In this document: positions 1 to 34,886 of the stretch, one piece after another | Layout: each line of letters starts with the position of its first letter | How positions within the stretch are numbered: the stretch's first letter is position 1 | Source: Lachnospiraceae bacterium | GTDB lineage: Bacteria; Bacillota; Clostridia; Lachnospirales; Lachnospiraceae | Assembly: GCA_017444015.1 (NCBI GenBank) | Contig: JAFSXN010000036.1 | Location: forward strand, 1-36,062 | Direction: 5' to 3' | DNA: 36,062 nucleotides | The notes under the pieces: model-generated | The model's database searches: none | What the model was told of the DNA's origin: nothing | The model's input: the letters and a program-made list of their open reading frames with translations, nothing else | Program-made: the position numbers and the translations under genes

Positions 1-17
1 GGTAATATATAAGGATA

Positions 18-136
18 GGAAATTATGCCGAATTTCCATTATTGCCGAAAATATGTAAAGGACACATATTTTCGGTCCCAAAGTTTTTTTGAGTAAACTT
101 TGTGGCAGTTGTTATATATGTAACAAAAAAACTTTG
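18..136 (+). ncRNA. three-hairpin RNA element, copy 1 (before rplF)
   Basis: Three hairpins in a row end at the rplF ribosome binding site. Hairpin 1 pairs GGAAATT (18-24) with AATTTCC (31-37). Hairpin 2 pairs 45-56 with 64-75 over 12 bp. Hairpin 3 pairs CAAAGTTTTTTTG (79-91) with 124-136 over 13 bp. Directly before it is ATAAGGATAGG and between hairpins 1 and 2 is CCATTAT. Both motifs recur, with different stem sequences, at 1831-1951 and 33790-33912. The Shine-Dalgarno AGGAGGG (139-145) follows the last arm at once, so folding could affect rplF translation. Structure is seen by base pairing; function is inferred. Confidence 0.75.
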
Positions 137-1816: not shown

Positions 1817-1830
1817 AATGTATAAGGATA

Positions 1831-1951
1831 GGAAATTCTGCCGAGTTTCCATTATTGCTGAAAACTTCCTGGAAAGCAGAAGTTTTCAGTCCCAAAGATT
1901 TTTTTGAGGAAAGTTTTTGGGGTATAAAAGTTGATAACAAAAAAATCTTTG
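1831..1951 (+). ncRNA. three-hairpin RNA element, copy 2 (before rplO)
   Basis: This is the same architecture as the element before rplF. Hairpin 1 pairs GGAAATT (1831-1837) with AGTTTCC (1844-1850). Hairpin 2 pairs CTGAAAACTTC (1858-1868) with 1879-1889. Hairpin 3 pairs 14 bases at 1893-1906 with 1938-1951. The flank ATAAGGATAGG and the linker CCATTATTG are conserved, while stems 2 and 3 differ in sequence from copy 1 yet stay paired. The rplO Shine-Dalgarno AAAGGAG (1956-1962) follows directly. Role unknown; translation control of rplO is a reasonable inference. Confidence 0.75.
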
Positions 1952-31991: not shown

Positions 31992-33560
31992 TTGAAAGGC
32001 AGAAAATTATACGAGTGGCTGTTGACCATAGCATATATCGCAATGGTGGGCGTATGCGTGTATCTGAATCTGTTCTCGAGCCAGAAGGAAGGTCTGACCA
32101 GTATCATCGTCAACGGCGTGATGTTTGTGATCGTCGGGCTGATCTTCTTAAACTGTGAGCTGCGCAGCTTCCGGCCGATCAACAGTATGATCGTGGATCT
32201 GAAGAAGGTCAATACGAAGATCCGGGCGGATGCCATGAATTCCCACCAGTTTCTCTGGATGAAATACGATGAGAGCGAGAAGGGGCTGTTCGAGGATCCG
32301 ATCTTAAAGAGAGAATTTAACGACTATATGCGCGAGCTGAACCGTATCTCGCGTATTGATAATGCTTATTATAAATGCGATATCGAGGATTTCATCAACT
32401 ATGATCTGGTGGACCGGGTGATCCACAGAAATCTTCTGAATCAGGTCGCGGGCGCTATGACAGGTCTCGGAATCCTCGGAACTTTTATCGGCTTGTCCCT
32501 CGGACTTCAGAGCTTTTCTACCGGCTCGACGGCGGAGATTACGAACAGTATCGCTCCTTTGATGAGCGGTATCAAGGTCGCGTTCCATACTTCGATCTAC
32601 GGTATGATCTTCTCCCTTGTTTTCAACTATGTCTTCAAGAGGAAGGTCGACGAGGCGGAGTCGGCGGTCGGCGAATTCCTGAATATGTACAAGAAGTACG
32701 TTCTGCCGGATACGACGACCGATGGGATCAACAAGCTGATGGAGCTGCAGGAGCAGCAGACCAGCGCCATCAACTCCCTGGCGAATACCGTAGCGCATCA
32801 GCTGTCGCAGGGTCTGGCGGATCTTTTGGAGCCCCAGTTCGATCGGTTTGATAAGACGATCACGAGCTTCGGGATGATGGCGACAAGAAATCAGCTGGAT
32901 GCTCTGTCCGTAGTCGTGAACCAGTTTATCAAGGAGATGAACAAGTCTCTGAACAACTCCTTCAACAATCTGGCGGAGACCATCGACGCGGCCTACAAGA
33001 CGCAGATCGAGAACGGAAAGCTGATGCACGAGCTCCTCGACCGGACCGGAAGCTCCGCGACGAACTTAAAGGAAATCGATGCCCAGACCGCGAATATCCT
33101 TCAGGCTCTCGATACCTATACGAAGGATGTTATAACGGTGCAGGGCGAGATGAGCAAGAATCTGGTAGGCTTGCAGCAGAGCGTAAACGCCGACAGCGCG
33201 TTTTTGGAGCAGGAGAGAAATTATATGGTGGACCTCGGGTCCTATCGAAAGGCTCTGGAGCAGTCCGCCGAATCCTTCAACGAGCAGCTCAAGAATCAGA
33301 AGCTGCTGCTTGAGGATATCAACAAGCTGATTACGAGAACGCCGGATAGCATCAAGGATACCTTTAAGGTGATCGAGGATGATCTGGTAAAGATCGAGAC
33401 GCATTTCCGTACGACGATTACTGAGATCCAGGATACAACGGAGCGGATGTCGGGCGTTGTCAATAATTCCAGCGTATATCTGGAGAAGGCGTTTGACAGG
33501 GCTTATTATTCTATCGAGCAGCTTACTGCGGCAGTGGATCGTATGAGAAGAAGCCTGTAG
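31992..33560 (+). CDS. MotA/ExbB/ZorA-like channel protein with coiled-coil tail
   Basis: The 522-residue protein has two early membrane helices (about 10-27, 38-54), a soluble loop, and the MotA/TolQ/ExbB core: LLNQVAGAMTGLGILGTFIGLSLGL (about 150-175) and IAPLMSGIKVAFHTSIYGMIFSLVFNYVF (about 188-216). After that, residues 235-522 are a long helical coiled-coil tail. In known relatives this fold makes a pentamer around a MotB-type dimer and passes ions to drive motion. The long tail is like ZorA of Zorya. The start codon is TTG at 31992, with GGGAGGATAAGGAG upstream. It pairs with the OmpA-like gene downstream. Confidence 0.88.
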   Translation: MKGRKLYEWLLTIAYIAMVGVCVYLNLFSSQKEGLTSIIVNGVMFVIVGLIFLNCELRSFRPINSMIVDLKKVNTKIRADAMNSHQFLWMKYDESEKGLFEDPILKREFNDYMRELNRISRIDNAYYKCDIEDFINYDLVDRVIHRNLLNQVAGAMTGLGILGTFIGLSLGLQSFSTGSTAEITNSIAPLMSGIKVAFHTSIYGMIFSLVFNYVFKRKVDEAESAVGEFLNMYKKYVLPDTTTDGINKLMELQEQQTSAINSLANTVAHQLSQGLADLLEPQFDRFDKTITSFGMMATRNQLDALSVVVNQFIKEMNKSLNNSFNNLAETIDAAYKTQIENGKLMHELLDRTGSSATNLKEIDAQTANILQALDTYTKDVITVQGEMSKNLVGLQQSVNADSAFLEQERNYMVDLGSYRKALEQSAESFNEQLKNQKLLLEDINKLITRTPDSIKDTFKVIEDDLVKIETHFRTTITEIQDTTERMSGVVNNSSVYLEKAFDRAYYSIEQLTAAVDRMRRSL

Positions 33561-33770
33561 AATGCAGTAACTGCTCAATGTCGAGCAACATACTTAGGCG
33601 GCAGTGGACCGTATGCGGAGAAGTTTGTAGGAAGCAGTAGCTGCTCAATGTCGAGCAACATACTTAGGCGGCAGTGGACCGTATGCGGAGAAGTTTGTAG
33701 GAAGCAGTAGCTGCTCAATGTCGAGCAACATACTTAGGCGGCAGTGGATCGTATGAGAAGAAGCCTCTGA
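33531..33770 (+). repeat. 70-bp tandem repeats after the MotA-like gene
   Basis: Units begin GCAGTGGA at 33531, 33601, 33671 and 33741, exactly 70 bp apart; units 2 and 3 are identical, and the last is partial. Each carries codons for AAVDRMRRSL and a stop, the very C-terminus of the MotA-like protein. The other part holds TGCTC-AATGTC-GAGCA, a small hairpin. Differences between copies are synonymous. Confidence 0.93.
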
Positions 33771-33789
33771 TAACAAGTATATTAGGATA

Positions 33790-33912
33790 GGATTTGCTCC
33801 CGCAAATCCATTATCGACAAAAACATCTAAAGAACAGATGTTTTTGCCCCTCTGAGTTTTGCCGGGCAAGGCATAAGAGGGTGGAAAGATTATTGACGGC
33901 AAAACGTCAGAG
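33790..33912 (+). ncRNA. three-hairpin RNA element, copy 3 (before OmpA-like gene)
   Basis: This element has the same layout as the copies before rplF and rplO. GGATTTGC (33790-33797) pairs with GCAAATCC (33802-33809), and AAAAACATCT (33819-33828) with AGATGTTTTT (33836-33845). CTCTG plus TTTTGCC (33850-33863) pairs with GGCAAAA plus CAGAG (33898-33912). The flank AGGATAGG and linker CCATTAT are conserved while every stem differs in sequence. AGGAG (33914-33918) follows directly, 8 bases before the start codon. Confidence 0.75.
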
Positions 33913-33926
33913 TAGGAGTATAAATA

Positions 33927-34886
33927 ATGGGTAGCAGACACCATAGAAAATTAGATGAGGAAACGTCCTATTGGCTGTCATATTCCGATATGATGGCGGG
34001 ACTTCTGCTCTGCTTCGTACTGATCATTTCCTTTACGCTTTTGCAGGCGAAGGTACAGTTTGATCTGGACGAGGCAAAGCTGATCGGTAAGGAGAATGAG
34101 CTGATCATCCAGTCGGACGCTCTGGAAAAGGAGCGACAGACCATCGCCTCTCAGCAGAGGCTGTTGGATCAGCAGACGCTGACCATGAGCCAGCAGCAAA
34201 AGACATTAGAGGAGCAGGAGGAGGAGCTGATCCGGCAGGAAAACGCCATCAAGATGCAGTCGGACGAGATCGCCAAGCAGCAGAAGATGATGGAGGAGCT
34301 GCGTAAAACGTTAGCGGACCAGCAGATCAAGCTCGATAATATCATCGGTGTCAGGGGCGAACTGATCGAAGCGCTGAAGAAGGAGTTTGACAAGTCGAAT
34401 ATGAATATCCTTGTCGACGAGCAGACCGGCGCGATCACCTTTGATTCGAGCATCCTTTATGAGTACGGGCGCGACGAGCTGAAGGATTCCGGTAAGGAGT
34501 TCCTGAAGGAATTTATGCCGCGTTATCTTCGGATCCTTATGAGCAGGGAGTACAAGCCGTACGTTGCGGAGATCATGATCGAGGGACATACAGACGATTC
34601 CGGTACCTATATTTATAACCTGGATCTTTCCCAGAGACGGGCGCTTTCGGTTGCGAAATACGTTCTGGATGAGGAGAATAATGTGCTCAGTACCTCACAG
34701 ATCAATGAACTGGAAAACATCCTGACCGTGAACGGTAAATCCTACAGCAATCCCATCTTCGACTCCAAAGGGGAGATCGATCCGGATGCTTCCAGACGAG
34801 TCGAGTTCCTGTTCAGGCTGAAGGATGAAGAGATGATACAGGAAATGATGGATATTCTGAGTGCTGAGATGGAGGGGCGGCAATGA
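33927..34886 (+). CDS. MotB/OmpA/ZorB-like protein
   Basis: The 319-residue protein has a short N-terminus, one membrane helix (about 22-40) beginning with SYSDMMAGLLLCFVLI in which Asp21 matches the ion-carrying Asp of MotB, then a long coiled coil (about 45-135). An OmpA-type peptidoglycan-binding domain (about 165-305) follows, with EGHTDDSGTYIYNLDLSQRRALSV and SRRVEFLF. It should sit in the channel of the upstream MotA-like protein and grip the cell wall outside. AGGAG lies 8 bases upstream. Its stop overlaps the next gene (ATGA). It resembles ZorB, though the coiled coil is longer than in stator MotB. Confidence 0.88.
   Translation: MGSRHHRKLDEETSYWLSYSDMMAGLLLCFVLIISFTLLQAKVQFDLDEAKLIGKENELIIQSDALEKERQTIASQQRLLDQQTLTMSQQQKTLEEQEEELIRQENAIKMQSDEIAKQQKMMEELRKTLADQQIKLDNIIGVRGELIEALKKEFDKSNMNILVDEQTGAITFDSSILYEYGRDELKDSGKEFLKEFMPRYLRILMSREYKPYVAEIMIEGHTDDSGTYIYNLDLSQRRALSVAKYVLDEENNVLSTSQINELENILTVNGKSYSNPIFDSKGEIDPDASRRVEFLFRLKDEEMIQEMMDILSAEMEGRQ

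Follow-up and report, generated by a model that had tools for sequence, protein, structure and literature searches.

The three-hairpin element found in three copies in a 36,062-nt Lachnospiraceae contig (hereafter the window, meaning the whole stretch of DNA that was analyzed) is probably an undescribed dispersed, structured intergenic repeat that has spread in trans and is kept as RNA hairpin punctuation between cistrons. Its copies are dispersed in both orientations, lie mostly between codirectional genes, and preserve their base pairing by compensatory change.

The three window copies listed in Table 1 lie where the first-pass annotation had placed them and share the motif and three-hairpin fold that it described. 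The 3′ boundaries it gave are indeed the ends of hairpin 3, while the conserved part begins 14 nt further 5′ than it had stated. The protein encoded 3′ of copy 3, read at that stage as OmpA-like, was assigned to the OmpA family by Pfam (PF00691, E 4e-12). The motif AGGATAGG by itself is not significant (3 found vs 1.81 expected by chance); the combination AGGATAGG-N8-30-CCATTAT gave 3 matches against 0.00 expected in 100 shuffles. Direct repeats (GTAGCTGCTCAATGTCGAGCAACATACTTAGGCGGCAGTGGA...) were also seen upstream of copy 3, at about window positions 33560-33770.

Table 1 Positions of the three window copies, the hairpins of copy 1 and the adjoining genes, in window coordinates.
Feature	Position	Strand	Description
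Copy 1, three-hairpin element	4..136	+	Class B, long third hairpin; R2 covariance model E 2.9e-17
Copy 1, flanks			Presumed rpsH end (TAA 3-5) upstream; rplF (ATG 153) downstream
Copy 1, hairpin 1	14..43	+	GATA-GGAAATT..AATTTCC-AT-TATT, AT bulge
Copy 1, hairpin 2	44..76	+	GCCGAAAATATGT..ACATATTTTCGGT
Copy 1, hairpin 3	79..136	+	Long form, 32-nt loop
Copy 1, arm A of hairpin 3			CAAAGTTTTTTTG; partner AAACTTTG within the loop (B) or CAAAAAAACTTTG (C); A:B p 0.002
Copy 2	1817..1951	+	Class B, long third hairpin, 31-nt loop; R2 E 6.0e-17
Copy 2, flanks			rpmD (stop codon ends 1816) upstream; rplO downstream
Copy 3	33776..33912	+	Class A, long third hairpin, 32-nt loop; R2 E 3.8e-18
Copy 3, downstream neighbor	33927..34886		OmpA-family gene

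Elements range from 98 to 171 nt in length and consist of three hairpins in a row. Hairpin 1 of class A has the form GATAGGATTTRC..GYAAATCC-AT-TATY, and 15 of 20 aligned copies have the AT bulge of hairpin 1. An A/T-rich stem of the AAAACATCT type forms hairpin 2. Hairpin 3 could be drawn in all but two of 27 copies (C36 and C201); its loop measures 2-7 nt in 15 of these 25 and 30-36 nt in 10, with no intermediates, and its 3′ arm carries an extra base in 13, all in the window's genome (13/17 there, 0/8 elsewhere). One copy of the congener UBA3814 (C31, before ssrA) has no recognizable hairpin 1. Fold strength is alike on both strands (mean z -6.5 and -7.2, 24 copies). A closing stem pairing the 5′ end with arm C appeared in single folds and was not significant (combined p 0.056 for long copies, 0.41 for short). 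As a separate observation, apical loops that are either very short or about 30-40 nt longer were found in hairpin 3 of 10 copies and also in hairpin 2 of loci L059, L061 and L071; the added length is uniform.

The compensatory changes reported in the first-pass annotation proved real, and covariation exceeded chance in two sets of copies. In the five exact-motif copies of the window's genome, aligned with MAFFT without reference to structure, pairing holds in 97.9% of cells, and both partners have changed at 8 of 19 pairs, a result matched by 0/500 shuffles. Across 25 pairs in 20 copies, in an alignment fitted to a model that holds most of the tested pairs and so leans towards structure, 94.8% of cells are standard pairs, a value reached in 0 of 500 shuffles, and both-sided change occurs at 13 of the 25 pairs (52 cells, 0/500 shuffles); the aligned copies are paralogues and the covariation test is not phylogeny-aware. 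Shifting the partner by one column lowered pairing in the 20 copies to 40-52%. This 20-row alignment (A4) omits seven of the 27 copies (C194, C36, C201, C34, UBA3814 C90, C113 and C31), together with three hits that were partial or on the reverse strand. Hairpin 3 is 99.3% paired in 24 copies, a figure biased by the selection of 3′ arms for complementarity. Core identity between copies runs from 0.50 to 0.92 with a median of 0.71, yet the stems remain paired, so the structure has outlived the sequence. No near-identical copies occur among the compared cores, and there is thus no sign of recent movement.

A covariance model made from the five exact-motif copies (R2) was used to search 37 genomes of the genus, with 129 candidates scored per genome. 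The window's genome yielded 17 copies at E<=3.3e-5, to which two weaker ones were added: the degraded C201 (E 0.02) and the diverged C34 before rplC (E 0.03), which is without the GATAGG motif and whose membership rests on place and architecture. UBA3814 contains seven copies, five of them strong (E<=1.8e-9) and two weak (E 0.006 and 0.16, the latter before ssrA), and RUI156 contains one; the other 34 genomes gave no R2 match below E 0.28. An exact pattern for one subclass, applied across 84,980 species, matched three contigs, all from Lachnospiraceae MAGs (RUI156, UBA3814 and RUI380). With one clear copy in RUI380 (E 4.5e-10, next best E 0.70), the carriers so far are four Lachnospiraceae genomes. 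The first-pass annotation had held that few further copies would speak against the element; copies are indeed many in the window's genome and UBA3814, but carriers number only 3 of the 37 genus genomes.

A second model (R3) was run on 397 family genomes, scoring the best 12 candidates per genome, a depth at which weak copies may escape. Among those candidates, clear matches came from the window's genome only, with at least 12 copies. The short motif pattern matched 12 times in 199 other genomes of the family, fewer than the 19 matches of a reversed-pattern control, and is therefore of no use outside the window's genome, likewise within the genus. No element was found in viral contigs with the exact pattern, and a blastn search with copy 3 gave no match among phage and plasmid records; carriage by phage or plasmid was rejected on this basis.

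Two marginal R3 matches outside the window's genome (G270 and G174) look terminator-like by eye, and the hairpins of the element are strong, as would be expected of ordinary intrinsic terminators or attenuators that are alike by chance. By eye, however, no U-run follows hairpin 3 in the copies inspected for this; hairpin 3 is typically followed by a Shine-Dalgarno sequence, by tmRNA or, in antisense copies, by a gene end, and the common GATAGG..CCATTAT is not a terminator feature. Chance resemblance among terminators is accordingly regarded as scarcely credible.

Relative to their flanking genes, 16 of 27 copies are sense and 11 antisense, with the orientation of C94 and C113 called from one flank. 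In the window's genome the neighbors include rplF, rplO, rplC, nusG-rplK, proS-ackA, nrdG-dut, pflB and lon, together with a Pvc16 operon, an FGGY kinase, sugar ABC transporters and polA-coaE; in UBA3814 they include flgE, flhB-flhA and pgk-tpiA, and copies stand head to tail in tandem between the genes read as pgk and tpiA. Of 20 neighboring proteins examined for domains, 18 had a match; names outside this set are those we presume the genes to bear. The spacer between sugar ABC binding protein and ATPase holds an antisense copy in the window's genome and a sense copy in RUI156, at loci that are perhaps not orthologous.

Several copies fill their spacers closely. The gap between the end of the element and tmRNA is 2 nt in the window's genome and 1 nt in UBA3814, and C86 fills the spacer from tRNA-Thr to tRNA-Tyr except for 1 and 3 nt. 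By eye, the end of the upstream gene or tRNA overlaps the element or lies 0-4 nt from it in 8 of 11 antisense copies, the exceptions being C55, C113 and the inner copy of the tandem. The same is true of 6 of 16 sense copies, namely copies 1 and 2, C4, C56a, C138 and C127. Such close upstream ends are what one would expect in short operon spacers if insertions of other kinds were not tolerated. Two other features were noted at these loci: a skipping-rope RNA (RF02924, 55.9 bits) downstream of tmRNA at L010 3173-3252, and a repeat of ~120 nt (GCGAACAGCCGAACGATCTCCCAG...) on the minus strand of L011, at about 2300-2540, upstream of what we take to be a CIRCE-like promoter of lon.

These positions bear directly on the proposal that the element, as a rule, extends to the ribosome binding site of the gene that follows. 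With 11 of 27 copies antisense, two abutting tmRNA and one between tRNA genes, where nothing is translated, that rule does not hold, and a general translation-leader reading was rejected on the 16:11 orientation. Many kinds of genes adjoin the copies in both orientations, rather than ribosomal protein genes downstream of sense copies as for a ribosomal protein leader. A more specific form of the leader hypothesis draws on the long third hairpins: the 3′ end of hairpin 3 would lie 1-5 nt upstream of the ribosome binding site, with arm A switching between B in the loop and C beside the Shine-Dalgarno sequence. In the seven long sense copies, complementarity between loop and arm A does exceed that of shuffled loops (Fisher-combined p 5e-6), whereas the three long antisense copies show no excess (p 0.52); a fold-based version covering nine long copies gave a combined p of 3e-4 (0.007 for copies 1 and 2). 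The A:B and A:C pairings are mutually exclusive, a property compatible with a switch placed ahead of the ribosome binding site but suggestive only. The combined p of the sense copies is nonetheless driven by the three window copies (p 0.002-0.008), with values of 0.07-0.24 for the other four, copy 3 reaches only p 0.16 in the fold-based version, and 15 of 25 drawn third hairpins are without such a loop. A cis-acting translation leader is considered improbable on balance. A related idea is judged just as doubtful, namely that the repeat has been recruited repeatedly as a switch in ribosomal-protein mRNAs. In the long sense copies upstream of rplF, rplO and rplC, and of a few other genes, arm A would then pick either B in the loop or C adjoining the ribosome binding site, and A, B and C would co-vary between copies. 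If true, one repeat family would furnish regulators to several operons.

If the fold matters in the transcript, wobble pairs should read as G-U when taken on the transcribed strand, whatever the orientation of the copy. This was the case for 32 of 44 wobbles (label permutation p 0.003), and for 31 of 43 when hairpin 3 was left out (p 0.005). Class B copies are all sense. The bias is weaker in subsets: class A alone gave p 0.10, improving to 0.013 without the constant A.C column and standing at 0.06 when weak and tandem copies were also dropped, and p was 0.16 over all classes once the three class-defining columns had been removed along with the weak copies. Column 52-84, which is A.C in 12 of 20 copies, favors the opposite strand. 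The wobble bias is a lead, not proof, that the fold acts in the transcribed strand.

Spacers were compared between congeners. The rpmD-rplO spacer measures 156 nt in the window's genome, 64 nt in UBA3814 and 15-38 nt in 28 other congeners. The rpsH-rplF spacer, measurable in 19 of 29 relatives, is 25-59 nt in 17 of them, 116 nt in UBA3814 and 128 nt in G210; no copy was recognized in the latter two, and some of the 10 remaining relatives hold other inserts. Between rpsJ and rplC, 19 congeners with short spacers (loci L124-L152) have a leader-like hairpin of the CTAGTATGAAC-stem-GGTCCGCTGTAG type, the stem letters of which change, by eye, with pairing kept. By eye, the rpsJ-rplC copies of the window's genome and UBA3814, which are alike in architecture and largely different in stem letters, sit inside this leader-like hairpin. 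In seven loci scanned, the sole Rfam family to reach its gathering threshold was the S10-Clostridia leader, upstream of rpsJ. A second multi-hairpin repeat family was seen in the same spacer of other congeners (L134, L142 and L146; reversed in L134), with more partial matches elsewhere in L142, L146 and L136, and other long inserts occur there in L128, L130 and L145.

A target-site duplication or consistent flanking direct repeat was found in none of 24 copies, and no terminal inverted repeat was seen by eye. The Y1 transposase domain PF01797, present in 18 of 37 congeners, is absent from the window's genome, UBA3814 and RUI156 (94%, 85% and 85% complete, respectively). Because no duplication, terminal inverted repeat or mobilizing gene was seen, the argument for mobility comes from distribution. 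Patchy presence, both orientations, the lengthened spacer and tandem copies would equally fit a purely selfish, non-autonomous MITE-like hairpin element, whose structure would serve a transposase or single-strand processing and whose effects on the host would be tolerated. The sharing of the rpsJ-rplC spacer with other multi-hairpin inserts in relatives, one of them reversed, also agrees with such an element, and template-switch correction of imperfect palindromes could mimic compensatory change. The copies are divergent yet still paired, however, and neither a mobilizer nor a target duplication is in evidence; we consider a purely selfish element unlikely, if worth keeping in view.

The first-pass annotation had offered both a general translation-control function and a mobile intergenic repeat. 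Dispersed copies, both orientations, the lengthened spacer and patchy presence favor the second over the first. Small structured repeats within operons are known mainly from enterobacteria, pseudomonads, neisseriae and streptococci. The present family is specific to a clade of uncultured Lachnospiraceae, its divergent copies keep the fold at places like ssrA and rplC, and it offers a natural setting in which to ask at what point a selfish repeat turns into a functional part of an mRNA. For the preferred reading, a dispersed repeat kept as punctuation between cistrons, we envisage that the repeat spread through trans-acting machinery and that copies survived where the stop codon, the ribosome binding site or the mature tRNA or tmRNA ends were spared. 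Once in a transcript, a copy may have been kept as RNA structure whichever strand is transcribed. Copies so kept might act as hairpin punctuation in polycistronic mRNA, through processing, as a decay barrier or by tuning the next cistron, roles reported or proposed for BIME, ERIC and BOX (PMC3049150).

As far as Rfam 15 goes, the element matches no described family, as had been suspected: the window gave 0 matches at gathering, and at a relaxed threshold only tmRNA and skipping-rope reached gathering in five loci with copies, at other positions. A search of a limited literature collection turned up known repeat families and no description of the element. TD-2 RNA (RF03162) has adjacent AU-rich hairpins that resemble, read on the opposite strand, hairpins 3 and 2 of the lon copy. 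This match scored 27.6 bits (E 0.089 with 959 bases searched), below the gathering score of 48.7, and was obtained for one of five copies searched; membership was rejected. No TD-2 match was found in the 37 genus genomes, a search without a positive control since the control genomes gave no match either.

In the REP, BIME and REPIN families, extragenic palindromes form hairpins in single-stranded DNA or mRNA and also occur in clusters and tandem arrays, and REPINs are REP doublets tied to RAYT (Y1) transposases (PMC3116915). The present element is likewise an extragenic hairpin-forming repeat with tandem copies. It differs from REPINs as outlined there in having three different hairpins in fixed order instead of an inverted palindrome doublet, and in the absence of the Y1 transposase from the three carriers searched, on which REPIN/RAYT membership was rejected. 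The BOX and RUP elements of Streptococcus pneumoniae are small interspersed repeats with a strong predicted RNA fold, modular, co-transcribed and mostly confined to one clade; they carry terminal inverted repeats, hybridized to each other, an insertion sequence has been proposed as the mover of BOX, and they are overrepresented between convergent genes (PMC3049150). The Lachnospiraceae element shares with them a strong RNA fold, dispersed intergenic copies, small size and a clade-limited range. It differs in lying mostly between codirectional genes, with no mover detected and with neither the terminal inverted repeats nor the target-site duplication that mark BOX/RUP-type MITEs. Although it fails tested defining features of each, the element is best read as a repeat of the BOX or BIME kind.
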